A stretch of 47,553 bases of DNA from Deltaproteobacteria bacterium (GTDB lineage Bacteria > Desulfobacterota > Syntrophia > Syntrophales > UBA6807): the NCBI GenBank assembly GCA_016935565.1, contig JAFGQS010000021.1, forward strand, positions 1 to 47,553, read 5' to 3'. Positions 27,919 through 34,200 of this stretch are shown here, piece by piece. Each line of letters begins with the position of its first letter. The stretch's first letter is position 1. Under the pieces are notes generated by a model. It was not told the origin of the DNA and ran no database searches. It saw only the letters and a program-made list of their open reading frames with translations. The position numbers were made by a program, and so were the translations under genes.

Positions 27919-29067
27919 ATGTACGATTTAATTATTGTCGGCGGTGGACCGGCCGGATCATCTGCGGGAAGAAGAGCAGGCATAAAAGGATTACACACTC
28001 TTTTAATCGAAAAAGAAGTTTTCCCACGCTATAAAGCATGTGGAGGAGCACTCTCGGAGCGGGCATTATCTTATCTTGATTTTCCGTTACCCCAATCTGT
28101 ACGGGAAAGAGAAATTTTCGGAGTACGATTTCGGTTTAAGGACTCTGTAATCGAGGGCTTCCATGAATCCCGCATAGCTACGATGGTGACGAGGAGCATT
28201 CTGGACGACTATTTACTCGAAAAAGGGAGAGAAGCGGGAATTGAAATTAAAGTCGGTGAGAATGTGATTGACTGTAAAGAACAGGGTGAATTTGTTGAAA
28301 TCATTACGAATAAAGACGTCTACAGATCTAAATTCGTCATTATCGGAGAAGGCTCACAGGGGAAAATGAAACGAAAGGTAAGATCAATCGACACGAAATA
28401 CGAATATGGCGTTTGCATCGTGGCCGATGTGGAAGAAGACATTGAAAAGATTGATCAAGTCATGTCCAATATTATGGAAATTCATTTTGATGTTTTGAAT
28501 ATGGGCTACGGTTGGATATTTCCGCATAAGAATTATTATTCCGTCGGAATCGGTGCTTTTGCGTATAAGATAATAAATCCTAAAAGGATAATGAATGAAT
28601 TCCTCAAGACAAAAGGGTTCAACGGCACGTTTCGATTAAGGGGACATACCATTCCTGCAGGCGGGATCACAAGGAACGTGGTCAGTCCGAGGGTGGTTCT
28701 TGTTGGTGACGCTGCTGGTTTTGTTGATCCTTTTGCCGGAGAAGGTATAGCGTATGCGATACGGTCAGGTCAGATCGCAGTGGAAGTTATTGCCGAAAAC
28801 ATTCGAGATACTAATCATGGCGCACAATTGGGGCAGTACGAATCAATTTGTCAACGTGAATTTGCAGACGATTTCAAGTATGCCTTACTATCGGTAAAAA
28901 TGATGCATCGCTTCCCCAATTTCTTCTTCAAAATACTCACGGGCAACCAAGAAGTGTTTGAAAAATTTATACAAATTCCAAATCTCACACGACATTATCG
29001 AAGTTATCTGGAGTGGCTTATTCCGAGATTACCACAATACCTTTTCTCTTTGTTCGCATCCCGGTAA
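27919..29067 (+). CDS. Geranylgeranyl reductase-family FAD-dependent oxidoreductase
   Basis: This 382-aa flavoprotein has an N-terminal Rossmann motif GGGPAGSSAGRRA (about 8-20), the FAD-contact segment FPRYKACGGALSERAL and a second FAD motif VVLVGDAAGFVDPFAGEGIAYAIRSG (about 258-283). This is the layout of geranylgeranyl reductases and related halogenases and hydroxylases. In anaerobes these enzymes reduce double bonds in prenyl chains (quinones or lipids) with a reduced ferredoxin-type donor. The substrate here is inferred only. It is a single gene with its own intergenic region upstream. Confidence 0.85.
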   Translation: MYDLIIVGGGPAGSSAGRRAGIKGLHTLLIEKEVFPRYKACGGALSERALSYLDFPLPQSVREREIFGVRFRFKDSVIEGFHESRIATMVTRSILDDYLLEKGREAGIEIKVGENVIDCKEQGEFVEIITNKDVYRSKFVIIGEGSQGKMKRKVRSIDTKYEYGVCIVADVEEDIEKIDQVMSNIMEIHFDVLNMGYGWIFPHKNYYSVGIGAFAYKIINPKRIMNEFLKTKGFNGTFRLRGHTIPAGGITRNVVSPRVVLVGDAAGFVDPFAGEGIAYAIRSGQIAVEVIAENIRDTNHGAQLGQYESICQREFADDFKYALLSVKMMHRFPNFFFKILTGNQEVFEKFIQIPNLTRHYRSYLEWLIPRLPQYLFSLFASR

Positions 29068-29156: not shown

Positions 29157-29202
29157 CCATTGATTGTCAACCAAATTGCAAATCGTGGTTGACAATCAAT
29201 GG
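29157..29202 (+). promoter_or_regulatory. Biotin operator (BirA-binding site) overlapping the birA promoter
   Basis: A perfect 17-bp inverted repeat (CCATTGATTGTCAACCA and its complement) flanks 12 bases. Its core TTGTCAACC (29164-29172), 14 bases, GGTTGACAA (29187-29195) matches the known BirA signal TTGTNAACC-N14/15-GGTTNACAA. The right arm contains a perfect -35 TTGACA (29189-29194). TAGAAA, a weak -10, lies 17 bases on (29212-29217). Binding of BirA with biotinyl-AMP here should block transcription of birA and the gene after it. Confidence 0.85.
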
Positions 29203-29244: not shown

Positions 29245-30252
29245 ATGTCAACGAAAGTACAACTCCTGTCATATTTAAAAGAAAATAGGGAAACCTGGGT
29301 TTCAGGTGAGTCGTTGAGTACGAAAATGGCCATCAGCCGATCTGCGGTATGGAAACATATCAAAGCATTGAGGGCAGACGGCTATACTATAGAATCATCT
29401 CCCAAAAAAGGATACCTTTTTCAAAAGGCCTCTGATCTGCTCCTGCCAGAAGAAATCAGGGAAGGACTCAAGACACGGTCATTTGGCCAACAAGAGATTG
29501 CCTATCACAGAGAAACTGACTCTACTAACCTCAGGGCAAAAGAATTAGCAGATCAAGGTGCTCCGGAAGGAACAGTCGTTATTTCGGAAAAACAGACGTC
29601 GGGCAGAGGAAGGCGGGGAAGAAGCTGGTTTTCACCTGCAGAAAAAGGAATTTATGCTTCCCTCATACTACGACCATCACTACCGCCAAATGAAGCACCC
29701 AAAATTGTGTTATTGACGTCAGTGGCAGCAGCAGAGGCTCTTTCTATACGGACGAAGCTGCCCGTTACGATTAAATGGCCTAATGATATCCTCGTCAAGG
29801 GGAAAAAAATTGCCGGTATCCTTATCGACATAGAAACAGAAATGGATGCCGTTAATTATGTTATCGTCGGTCTCGGCCTGAATGTGAATATTCCATATCA
29901 CAGTCTTCCTGAATCAATCAGAAACGATGCAACATCCATTCTCATTGAAACGGGGAAACAAACACCCAGAAAGGATATTATCAGGGAATATCTACGGTTG
30001 TGTGAAAAATATTATGAGCAGTTCAATGAGGGACGATTTCAAGAAATCCTCGAAAGATGGGAAAAGTATGCCAACATTATTGGTCAACGGATACGGGTTG
30101 ATCTGGCCGGGAAAACACATATGGGAAACGTTTCTCATATCGATCCTGATGGTGTTCTGGTAATCATCGATTCGGACGGCAGAACGCACAGGATATTTTC
30201 AGGTGATATGACAGTAATGAATGAAATGAATCGAGGGGGTTCTATTACATGA
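29245..30252 (+). CDS. birA: Bifunctional biotin-protein ligase and biotin operon repressor
   Basis: This 335-aa protein joins biotin to carrier proteins and, because it has a DNA-binding domain, also represses biotin genes. Residues 1-60 form a winged helix (ISRSAVWKHIKALRADGYTIES). The ligase domain shows TNLRAKELADQGAPEGTVV, SGRGRRGRSWFSP (biotinyl-AMP loop) and KWPNDILVKGKKIAGIL. The C-terminal domain ends in the SH3-like FSGDMTV. A BirA operator lies 43 bases upstream, so it is probably autoregulated. Its stop overlaps the start of the symporter gene. Confidence 0.95.
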   Translation: MSTKVQLLSYLKENRETWVSGESLSTKMAISRSAVWKHIKALRADGYTIESSPKKGYLFQKASDLLLPEEIREGLKTRSFGQQEIAYHRETDSTNLRAKELADQGAPEGTVVISEKQTSGRGRRGRSWFSPAEKGIYASLILRPSLPPNEAPKIVLLTSVAAAEALSIRTKLPVTIKWPNDILVKGKKIAGILIDIETEMDAVNYVIVGLGLNVNIPYHSLPESIRNDATSILIETGKQTPRKDIIREYLRLCEKYYEQFNEGRFQEILERWEKYANIIGQRIRVDLAGKTHMGNVSHIDPDGVLVIIDSDGRTHRIFSGDMTVMNEMNRGGSIT

Positions 30253-31646
30253 ACGTAACAATTGTAGGTATATTTCTTATCGGAATGATCGTTGTCGGTA
30301 TCGTCAGCATGAAAAAGATCAAGACCACCGTTAGTTACTTTGTAGCGGATCGCAATGGCAGCAGCATCGCCATAACCGGATCTCTCTTAGCTACGCTGAT
30401 CGGCGGCTCAAGCACAATAGGCCTGGCAGGACTGGGGTATGCCAAAGGTCTTGTCGGGGCGTGGTGGATGCTGGTCGGTGTTATCGGCCTGTTGATTCTC
30501 TCTTTCTGGCTTGCCAAGAAAGTAAGGAGCTATGCCGTCTATACACTTCCTGAAATTCTGGAGAGGCAATATGGTGGTAATACGGTAAAAATCATCGCCT
30601 CCCTCGTCATTGCGACAGCATGGCTCGGGATCATTGCCGGACAGATTATCGCCGCCGGAAAGATTCTATCCGTTCTCTGGCCGGGTCACCTTGACCTTTT
30701 AATGGTCATGGCAACATCGGTTTTCATTCTTTACACCGTGCTGGGAGGCCAATATTCCATCCTGAGAACCGATTTTATTCAGTCTATTATCATCATTGCG
30801 GGGCTGCTCTTGTGTTTGATAATCAGCATATCTGCAGCAGGTGGATTTGCGTCAATGGCCGGGCATCTTCCCGAAACTCATTTCTCATTTCCCGTATCTC
30901 CCGTGTTTGGATGGAGTAATCTTCTAACATTTATCTTATTTGTCGGCACAGCGTACCTTGTCGGTCCCGATATTTATTCAAGAATATTCTGTTCCAGGAA
31001 TCCCGAAACCGCGAAAAACTCGATCATAACAGCTGCTCTCATAATGATTCCTCTTGCCTTTTTCATAACCTTGATAGGCATAACAGCGCGGGTATTGCTG
31101 CCGGGGATTCCGCCGGAAAGTGCCCTGCCTTCCCTTGTCATGAAAACCGTTCCCATCGGGTTGAATGGCCTTGTCATAGCGGCTCTTCTGGCAGCAGTAA
31201 TGTCGTCAGCAGACACATGCCTGTTGACAACAAGTACCATTGTGGCGGCGGATATCATCAATCCCGCCTTTAAATCAACAATCGATGAAAAGGCTCTGCT
31301 GATGATTACGAGAATCGGGGTGATTGTAATCGGTGTCATTTCTCTTTTTATTGCCTTGAAATTGAAAGGAATCATTACTTCTCTCCTTTTAGGATATACG
31401 GTCTACACAAGTGGCCTGGTAATCCCGGTACTCCTTGGTTTTTATGCAAAGAGCTTGAAATTGAACACGTCTGGTGTTATAGCGGCGGTCATAGGTGGTG
31501 GCGGAATGGGACTTATCTTGAAGTTGTCAGGCTACAATAACTTGGCACTTCTTACCTTTCCCGTTTCTGCCGTACTCCTTTTCTCAGGTAGTTATCTCTC
31601 TCGCCTGATGGAAGGGAAAGAGACTGCCGAAACGGTAGAAACCTGA
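30249..31646 (+). CDS. Sodium:solute symporter family transporter, candidate biotin or precursor importer
   Basis: This 465-aa membrane protein has about thirteen hydrophobic segments. It carries the SSS-family pattern: YFVADRNGSSIAITGSLLATLIGGSSTIGLAGLGYAKG near the N-terminus and LAAVMSSADTCLLTTSTIVAADI later, the region with Na+-binding Ser/Thr residues. The ATG overlaps the birA TGA by 4 bases (ATGA), so it is translationally coupled and sits under the BirA operator. SSS members carry sugars, amino acids, pantothenate and, in animals (SMVT), biotin. Biotin transport here is an inference from context. Confidence 0.85.
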   Translation: MNVTIVGIFLIGMIVVGIVSMKKIKTTVSYFVADRNGSSIAITGSLLATLIGGSSTIGLAGLGYAKGLVGAWWMLVGVIGLLILSFWLAKKVRSYAVYTLPEILERQYGGNTVKIIASLVIATAWLGIIAGQIIAAGKILSVLWPGHLDLLMVMATSVFILYTVLGGQYSILRTDFIQSIIIIAGLLLCLIISISAAGGFASMAGHLPETHFSFPVSPVFGWSNLLTFILFVGTAYLVGPDIYSRIFCSRNPETAKNSIITAALIMIPLAFFITLIGITARVLLPGIPPESALPSLVMKTVPIGLNGLVIAALLAAVMSSADTCLLTTSTIVAADIINPAFKSTIDEKALLMITRIGVIVIGVISLFIALKLKGIITSLLLGYTVYTSGLVIPVLLGFYAKSLKLNTSGVIAAVIGGGGMGLILKLSGYNNLALLTFPVSAVLLFSGSYLSRLMEGKETAETVET

Positions 31647-31706: not shown

Positions 31707-32579
31707 ATGGATCATGATTGGGTCTGGGTCGACAGTGAACAACAACTGGAACTTGTACGAGATGAAATACAGAATTCCTCCTTACTTGGTGTTGATACCG
31801 AGTATGACTCCTTCAGATATTTCAAAGAAAAACTCTGTCTTATTCAATTGGTCAGCGGATCGAAAACGTATGTTGTTGATCCCCTTGAAGGGCTCGACAT
31901 ATCTTTTTTAGGTGATCTTTTTTCCGATTCCAGAGCAATAAAGATCCTTCATGCCGGCGATAATGACATACGGATTCTGAATCGGGATTACGGTTTCGTA
32001 TTTAAAAACATCTTTGATACATCTCGGGCGGCCTCAATTCTTGGATGTAATTATCTTTCTCTTTCCCACGTTGTTAACCACTATCTGGGCGTGGCCTTAC
32101 ATAAATCAAAAAAAATGCAGCGATCACAGTGGGAACAAAGGCCCCTTACGGAGGAACAACTCCATTATGCTGTCAAGGATACAAAATATCTCTTAGAATT
32201 ATATCGTATACTGAGCGATATGTTACAAAAAGAGGATCTTGACCAGAGGGCAGATGAAGCTTTTAGCTCAATGGAAAATATCAGATGGCGTGAAAAAAGA
32301 CTCGATCCCTGGGGATATTTGAAGATTAAAGGATATCATGAACTCAACGAAAAGCAGCAAGAACGTTTAAAATCCCTTTTTTGCTGGCGTTTCGAAAAAG
32401 CAAGAGAGACGAATAAGGCTCGGTTTATGATTTTATCCGATCAGAACTTGTTTGACCTCTCAAAAGAAAAAATCGATACTATCACATCGCTCACGGAGCG
32501 AGGGAACCTATCATCTCGAAAAATCAGAATCTTTGGTTCGGAAATAATAGAAACGCTAAATAATGTTGATTCGAAATAG
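31707..32579 (+). CDS. rnd: RNase D-like 3'-5' exonuclease
   Basis: This 290-aa DEDDy nuclease has D30 and E32 in GVDTEYDSF, a later Asp in AGDNDIRILN, and the YAVKDTKYL motif with its Tyr and Asp. After the catalytic domain there is one HRDC-like domain (about 205-275, KGYHELNEKQQERLKSLFCWR), where E. coli RNase D has two. It should trim RNA 3' ends, for example of tRNA. The start follows GGGGAG by 8 bases. It is 60 bases downstream of the symporter. Confidence 0.85.
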   Translation: MDHDWVWVDSEQQLELVRDEIQNSSLLGVDTEYDSFRYFKEKLCLIQLVSGSKTYVVDPLEGLDISFLGDLFSDSRAIKILHAGDNDIRILNRDYGFVFKNIFDTSRAASILGCNYLSLSHVVNHYLGVALHKSKKMQRSQWEQRPLTEEQLHYAVKDTKYLLELYRILSDMLQKEDLDQRADEAFSSMENIRWREKRLDPWGYLKIKGYHELNEKQQERLKSLFCWRFEKARETNKARFMILSDQNLFDLSKEKIDTITSLTERGNLSSRKIRIFGSEIIETLNNVDSK

Positions 32580-32706: not shown

Positions 32707-32922
32707 TTACTTTAAAACTAACAATACTTGATCCTCTTCTACTTCATCATCCGGTTTCACCTTAATTTCCGCTATAATTCCCGGTGAATCAGCGTAGATA
32801 GGATTTTCCATTTTCATCGCTTCTATGCTTAAAAGTTCATCGTCTTCGTGTATTTCATCGCCAACCTGAACATAAACTTCAAGAATTTTTCCTGAAATCG
32901 GAGCCATCACTTCTACACTCAC
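32707..32922 (-). CDS. Biotin carboxyl carrier protein of a Na+-pumping decarboxylase, 71 aa
   Basis: This is a short biotinyl domain with the EAMKMEN motif and biotinyl-lysine at residue 37. The GTG at 32922 is chosen because GGGGAGG lies 8 bases before it; the frame is open to 32976, but that end lacks such a site. The start MSVEVMAPISGKILEVYV matches the roughly 70-aa carriers of methylmalonyl-CoA and glutaconyl-CoA decarboxylases. It receives CO2 from the alpha subunit, which is not in the window, and passes it to the beta subunit encoded just upstream. BirA, encoded nearby, should biotinylate it. Confidence 0.88.
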   Translation of the reverse strand: MSVEVMAPISGKILEVYVQVGDEIHEDDELLSIEAMKMENPIYADSPGIIAEIKVKPDDEVEEDQVLLVLK

Positions 32923-32999
32923 TTTTTCTACCTCCCCAAATAATTTTAGTGTGACAAATTCACAAAATATAAACAAAGCATTTCATTGTAATTACTTAA

Positions 33000-34124
33000 T
33001 TACTTTAAAAGCATACTCAGAAAAAGCCCCGCCGCCGTGGCCGTTCCAATTGTACCGGCCACATTCGGTCCCATCGCCTGCATGAGAATAAATGTTTTTT
33101 TGTCCTCCTGCCGTGCCACCGTATGGGCAACTCTCGCAGCCATGGGAACAGCCGAAACACCGGCGGCGCCGATCAAGGGATTTATTTTATCCTTTAAAAA
33201 CAGGTTCATAAATTTTGCCAAGATAAGGCCTGCAGCCGTACTGAAGGCAAAAGAAATTAAACCCAGAAAAAAGATATAAAGGCTTTGAGATTTCAGAAAA
33301 ACCTCTGCAGGCATGGTAGCGCCGACGCAAAGGCCCAGGAATATGGTAACAATATTGATCAGCTCATTCTGGGCAGTCTTGGATAGACGTTCCACCACTC
33401 CGCACTCCCTGAACAGATTTCCCACCATAAGCATCCCTACCAGTGGTGCCGAAGCGGGGACAAGGAGACAGATGATTATTGTAGCCATCATGGGAAAACC
33501 AATCTTTTCTACCTTGCTCACGGTTCGCATTTTCTTCATCTTTATCTTCCGTTCCTCTTTGGTCGTCAACAGCTTCATGATCGGAGGCTGAATGATCGGA
33601 ACCATAGCCATATACGAATAGGCAGCAACCGCTGTTGCACCGAGAAGATGAGGCGCGAGTTGAGATGTCAAAAATATCGTTGTGGGGCCATCGGCTCCTC
33701 CGATGATCCCGATAGAGGCAGCCTCCTGTATATTAAATCCGATTAAAAGGGAACCAAAGAATGTTGCATACACTCCGAACTGGGCTGCGGCACCGAGAAG
33801 CAAGGTCTTTGGATTGGCTATAACCGGTCCGAAATCCGTCATGGCACCAACACCCATGAAGATAAGGGGGGGGATGATGTCCCACCGGTCGATAGCAAAA
33901 TGATAGAAGACCCAGAGCAGATTCTCTTCCTTCATGAGATTCGTAAGTGGAACATTTACCAGTAATATTCCAAAGCCGATGGGAACTAACAGGAGCGGTT
34001 CATATTGCTTAACGATTCCAAGCACGATAAGAGTAATCCCGATAATCCACATCAGAACATTACCGAATGTTAAATGGTAAAAACCCATCTTTGTGACCAA
34101 CTGATAGAGAAGACCTGTATCCAT
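33000..34124 (-). CDS. Na+-transporting decarboxylase beta subunit (OadB/MmdB/GcdB type)
   Basis: This is 374 aa from the ATG at 34124; ten further in-frame residues upstream lack a start signal. It is a membrane carboxybiotin decarboxylase with about eleven hydrophobic segments. Diagnostic stretches are [35 protein letters not shown] and [15 protein letters not shown]. The enzyme releases CO2 from carboxybiotin and exports Na+. Gene order is gamma-like subunit (34359), beta, biotin carrier, with 77-base gaps. The alpha carboxyltransferase, which sets the substrate (methylmalonyl-, glutaconyl-CoA or oxaloacetate), is absent. Confidence 0.92.
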
Positions 34125-34200
34125 TATAGCTGTATCCTCAACCTCGCAGAACAATATATTGAATGAAATTAGTTCCTTACTATATGAAAATGCCTTTGTC

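Follow-up and report, generated by a model that had tools for sequence, protein, structure and literature searches.

A BirA-associated SSS symporter as a predicted biotin importer in place of BioY in Desulfobacterota

The birA–SSS locus and its operator

The window, by which we mean the whole stretch of 47,553 nucleotides analysed, comes from a member of the order Syntrophales (Desulfobacterota) and contains a biotin-protein ligase gene, birA, followed by a symporter gene of the SSS family (Table 1). The two genes overlap by 4 bases (ATGA) and a BirA operator lies upstream, an arrangement that had been noted before and that we confirmed from the sequence. BirA keeps its DNA-binding domain: the protein matches Pfam HTH_11 (4.4e-17) and BPL_LplA_LipB (1.2e-22), scores above the cut-off of TIGR00121 and thereby satisfies the criterion for a group II ligase/repressor, an HTH combined with a ligase domain. 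A second biotin ligase is encoded elsewhere in the same genome (G000:C116:24008-24730), and its 272-aa open frame suggests that it has no HTH domain; the genomes G139, G141 and G143 likewise have two biotin ligases each.

Table 1 Features of the birA–SSS locus (positions in the window)
Feature	Position	Strand	Description and basis
GGred (FAD-dependent geranylgeranyl-reductase-superfamily gene)	27919-29067	+	Upstream neighbour; TIGR02032 above cut-off, synteny
BirA operator	29157-29202	.	Perfect 16+14+16-base dyad (46 bases), CCATTGATTGTCAACC-N14-GGTTGACAATCAATGG; predicted, no binding data
Operator core	29164-29195		TTGTCAACC-N14-GGTTGACAA; read from sequence
TTGACA	29189-29194		Within right arm of operator; possible -35 box
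birA	29245-30252	+	335 aa biotin-protein ligase with N-terminal HTH; predicted autoregulated repressor
SSS symporter gene	30249-31646	+	465 aa; Pfam SSF; predicted Na+-coupled biotin importer
RNase D-like exonuclease gene	31707-32579	+	Downstream syntenic marker; Pfam, synteny
gcdC/gcdB-like genes	32707-34154	-	Biotin carrier protein; Na+-translocating decarboxylase beta subunit

The operator core is the sole exact match to the operator pattern in the 3.06-Mb genome. The motif is rare in the order, occurring in 16 of 155 genomes, and in 11 of these 16 it lies at bioB or 5' of birA–bioY; a reversed-pattern control gave no match over the same 155 genomes. The bioB gene of the genome under study has an operator with one mismatch (L120 6965-6996). 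Half-sites identical to those of the window, again separated by N14, have been published for biotin genes of Geobacter and Desulfuromonas (PMC545781, Table 1). A pattern with an N15 spacer had no match in the window because the spacer is 14 bases long. One possibility, suggested by sequence alone, is that the TTGACA within the right arm of the operator is a -35 box, and from this placement we infer possible competition between the repressor and RNA polymerase. No good -10 partner for it emerged from a consensus scan, so the promoter is not established.

Operators were also seen in other settings. In G073, a perfect BirA operator (L117 3377-3408) lies ahead of two genes, the first bioA-like and the second resembling fatty-acid-synthesis genes; this unit is a candidate pimelate-synthesis operon. 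Genes near the perfect operators of G116 (L119 3129-3160) and G025 (L118 3709-3741) match no biotin gene of the reference set. G139 has two different perfect operators near contig ends that flank its GGred–birA junction (L116 150-181; L071 14150-14181), possibly a tandem pair with the assembly broken between them. In G102, a short stretch near bioB and a degenerate operator (G102:C52:6786-6899, L128) scores against the biotin ligase model and is possibly a ligase remnant.

Whether GGred belongs to the birA–SSS system is uncertain; several genomes have it 5' of the SSS gene, and its tie to biotin is unexplained. The RNase D-like gene is not thought to be a functional part of the system. The gcdC/gcdB-like genes adjoin the birA–SSS–RNase D group, a position that makes a central role for both biotin and the Na+ gradient likely in this organism.

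Family, fold and sodium site of the SSS protein

The protein matches Pfam SSF (PF00474, E=4.6e-41) across profile positions 1-406 of 406 and thus qualifies as a whole-protein SSF member. An AlphaFold model, for which the input was the window protein and its relatives from the genome scan, has the LeuT-type fold of SSS proteins (pLDDT 86, pTM 0.86), and its best matches among solved structures are SGLT2, SGLT1, CHT1 and SiaT, at a TM-score of about 0.8. The Na2 site of vSGLT, which we take to consist of A62, I65, A361, S364 and S365, aligns with A48, I51, A316, S319 and S320, meeting our criterion for an Na2 site; A48, S319 and S320 are invariant in the SSS clade. Other residues invariant in the clade are S54, T56, G58, the VGPD motif with S244-R245, the MSSAD motif (318-322) and D175.

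According to the first-pass annotation, biotin transport would have been refuted by a clear match to a symporter already characterised for proline, pantothenate or acetate. No such match reached its cut-off. PutP, PanF and ActP, SSS symporters of bacteria, share its Pfam domain, but the protein scored 110.2 bits against the PutP profile (TIGR02121, equivalog cut-off 515.5), 107.6 bits against PanF (TIGR02119, equivalog cut-off 328) and 20.3 bits against ActP (cut-off 1099). In a tree of 47 sequences, 31 carrier proteins and one Bacteroidota protein (L003) formed a group apart from the E. coli PutP, PanF and ActP proteins; long branches limit the placement of the outgroups. Apart from L003, the genome-scan matches from Bacteroidota, Planctomycetota and Verrucomicrobiota belong to other SSS branches and were left out of the functional argument.

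The same annotation had proposed a bacterial counterpart of the animal biotin transporter SMVT (SLC5A6). As an analogy within the SSS/SLC5 superfamily this holds, with biotin and the same coupling ion predicted for the bacterial protein, but orthology is not supported, because SMVT is not among its closest superfamily members. SMVT matched at E=0.0084 in the single-protein search and 2.9e-11 in the profile search, compared with about 1e-33 for SGLT1/2 and vSGLT, and it ranked below SGLT1/2, CHT1, vSGLT and SiaT in both searches. Nor was it among the 50 best fold matches, with the caveat that the presence of SMVT entries in the library was unchecked. Unlike SMVT, the bacterial gene is predicted to be under BirA control. 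The biotin function of the SSS protein, if real, is separate in origin from that of SMVT.

Distribution, gene order and operators in relatives

We counted the SSS clade and BioY, the importer that bacteria usually use for biotin, in 155 genomes of the order, in 395 genomes across the phylum and in a combined set of 534; many are draft assemblies, and YigM/BioP-type transporters were outside the search. The Fisher tests reported here ignore phylogeny and are inflated by related genomes. No genome had both proteins: the order contained 17 SSS and 65 BioY carriers, the phylum-wide set 18 and 85 (above cut-off), and the combined set 34 and 143 (P = 1.7e-5). The biosynthetic gene bioB was absent from 27 of the 34 SSS carriers (12 of 17 within the order and 15 of 17 outside it), and phylum-wide it was present in 267 of 395 genomes versus 3 of 18 SSS carriers (P = 8e-6). 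The first-pass annotation had suggested asking whether the birA–SSS pair occurs in genomes without bioY and bioB; for the SSS gene the answer is clearly positive. The distribution is complementary to BioY and tied to auxotrophy, as we required of a biotin importer. The seven carriers with bioB, among them the genome under study, do not strictly need one. SSS and BioY also alternate within genera, namely g39 (three SSS, three BioY), g184 (three SSS, one BioY) and g175 (one each).

A biotin ligase was detected in 30 of the 35 genomes searched, these being the 34 carriers, of which 29 have one, and the non-carrier G097, which also does; the carriers without a detected ligase include less complete assemblies. 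Carriers with a ligase use biotin, and the 27 without bioB can neither make it nor use dethiobiotin. Among the 45 genomes of the order that are at least 90% complete and lack bioB, 31 have BioY, 9 have the SSS protein, none has both and 5 have neither (G005, G039, G051, G059 and G097). Perhaps these five have yet another biotin importer; of them, G097 is a 100% complete genome with an HTH-less BirA.

Within the order, all 16 SSS loci with an assembled downstream side have the RNase D gene directly 3' of the SSS gene; the seventeenth orthologue, in G102, was left out of this count because its contig ends inside the SSS gene. In about half of the order's loci GGred lies 5' of the SSS gene, either immediately or separated from it by birA, and birA occupies this intermediate place only in family f1, comprising the genome under study (G000), G141, G143 and, across a contig break, G139. 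Outside the order, birA adjoins a more distant SSS gene in G309 (L156). Adjacency confined to the window would have counted against the earlier proposal; it recurs, but in these five examined loci only. A close relative with 79% identity (G142) has prfA in place of birA, and SSS orthologues of the phylum outside the order have mostly unrelated neighbours. We therefore rejected birA adjacency as the main evidence: most orthologues lack it, making it a lineage-specific and weaker part of the case, and the constant neighbour within the order is RNase D.

The gene order of family f1, operator–birA–SSS–RNase D, parallels that of family f15 (L111-L114), in which the operator and birA are followed by bioY, ECF parts (a CbiQ-type protein) and RNase D. 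This comparison indicates that the SSS gene fills the slot of the ECF biotin transporter. A related arrangement occurs in G086 (L110), in which an ABC ATPase and CbiQ come after an operator–birA–bioY unit.

Predicted operators also precede SSS units that lack an adjacent birA. In G102, a perfect operator lies 5' of GGred–SSS, with GGred (L084 732-1898) between operator and SSS gene, and birA lies elsewhere under its own perfect operator (L084, L115). G424 has an operator with two mismatches 87 bp 5' of the SSS gene. In family f33, a variant site, TTGTAwACc-N13-xGTTGACAw, lies 53-104 bp 5' of the SSS gene in all six genomes, and both half-sites stand out in an alignment of the upstream regions; some of these operators have four mismatches, and two of those were matched by about 8% of single-sequence shuffles. 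The BirA proteins of SSS carriers divide into HTH-bearing and HTH-less forms. Of 13 genomes whose BirA bears an HTH, 10 had an operator at the SSS unit, versus 0 of 16 with an HTH-less BirA (P = 1.4e-5). The three exceptions are G111, G255 and G309, the last having a contig that begins 46 bases before birA. Loss of the operator together with loss of the BirA DNA-binding domain is expected if BirA controls the SSS gene. Membership in the BirA regulon, the other property required of a biotin importer, is thus met with these three exceptions, on predicted sites without binding data.

Biotin import and competing explanations

These data support the earlier biotin-transport interpretation, although transport itself is inferred and the comparative distribution weighs more than the position beside birA. 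The SSS gene very probably encodes a secondary active biotin importer, most likely driven by Na+, that replaces BioY and is repressed by BirA; the substrate, the coupling ion and the repression are all inferences. Exclusivity with BioY, enrichment in genomes without bioB, restriction of the operator to genomes with an HTH-bearing BirA and use of the bioY slot are computational observations. Close vitamers may possibly be imported besides biotin; a broader vitamer specificity has been suggested for BioY and YigM (PMC6593275). When cytoplasmic biotin is plentiful, BirA loaded with biotinyl-AMP would dimerise on the operator and switch the birA–SSS unit off. When biotin is short, BirA would be engaged in ligation, leaving the operator free, and importer and ligase would be made together.

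The first-pass annotation had allowed for import of a biotin precursor such as dethiobiotin, KAPA or pimelate instead of biotin. The predicted BirA regulation would also fit such a substrate, and the seven carriers with bioB could use one. The other 27 carriers, however, lack the last step of the known route and could not convert any precursor to biotin along it, and a precursor-only role is disfavoured to the point of being very unlikely. A pantothenate symporter placed near birA, much as E. coli panF lies beside biotin carboxylase genes (accBC-yhdT-panF), is a slightly weaker candidate still. PanF belongs to the same superfamily and gives a weak score, and animal SMVT carries both biotin and pantothenate. 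But that score falls far short of the PanF cut-off, the SSS clade is apart from PanF in the tree, long branches notwithstanding, and among the genomes checked for panB, 16 of 17 SSS carriers of the order and 6 of 7 comparison genomes lacking the SSS gene have it. Pantothenate need therefore does not track the gene, the distribution of which follows BioY and bioB instead.

It is also conceivable that the protein imports a carboxylate or other nutrient for a biotin-dependent, Na+-pumping decarboxylase metabolism, with BirA control reflecting biotin demand. The gcdC/gcdB-like genes near the SSS gene in the window and in some relatives are in keeping with this, but these genes lie on the other strand and are lacking at most loci of the orthologues, and strict exclusivity with BioY and the shared operon slot would be left unexplained; we find this less plausible than pantothenate import. 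Least credible of all, and close to negligible, is an unrelated SSS gene that lies beside birA by chance, with shared ancestry alone producing the profile and operator patterns. Such an account gains something from the SSS–RNase D synteny being wider than birA adjacency and from the inflation of the tests by related genomes. It does not sit well with the alternation of SSS and BioY within three genera, the operators 5' of SSS genes without birA in G102, G424 and f33, or the coincidence of operator loss with loss of the BirA HTH.

Biotin import remains the preferred reading. The SSS protein would share with BioY/BioYMN its predicted function, the BirA operator, the place after birA near RNase D and the role in auxotrophs, but the proteins are unrelated, and ECF systems use ATPases whereas the SSS protein presumably uses the Na+ gradient. 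We take YigM (BioP) of E. coli and the SSS protein to belong to different protein families. The predicted function of the latter is the same, YigM being a secondary biotin transporter outside the ECF family (PMC6593275); YigM is reported mainly in prototrophs, whereas the SSS clade occurs mainly in genomes lacking bioB. It is likely, if less firmly supported than biotin import itself, that BioY and YigM are joined by the SSS clade as a third bacterial biotin transporter family, present in many families of a single phylum, and that on several occasions it displaced the ATP-driven ECF system, including at least one case in which the operon slot stayed the same.

The first-pass annotation knew of no well-described bacterial case of biotin transport by an SSS protein, and we found no description of one in the open-licence papers searched; an earlier account elsewhere is possible. 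No SSS gene is mentioned in the accessible parts of work on delta-proteobacterial and proteobacterial BirA regulons or of a gut vitamin survey. On our best reading, the new aspect is a biotin importer from a family not known for biotin in bacteria, subject to that proviso. Vitamin surveys recognise BioY and YigM as biotin importers, and the biotin source of auxotrophs without BioY is open; about a fifth of the predicted biotin auxotrophs in a gut set lack BioY (PMC6593275). The SSS clade offers a testable gene family for part of this importer gap in syntrophic and related anaerobes and a means of predicting biotin cross-feeding from genomes. For Na+-coupled vitamin transport within the superfamily that includes human SMVT, it also provides a small model from bacteria. 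If true, our interpretation would explain biotin auxotrophs in which no importer is known, and it would imply separate origins of biotin use among the SSS carriers of bacteria and of animals.
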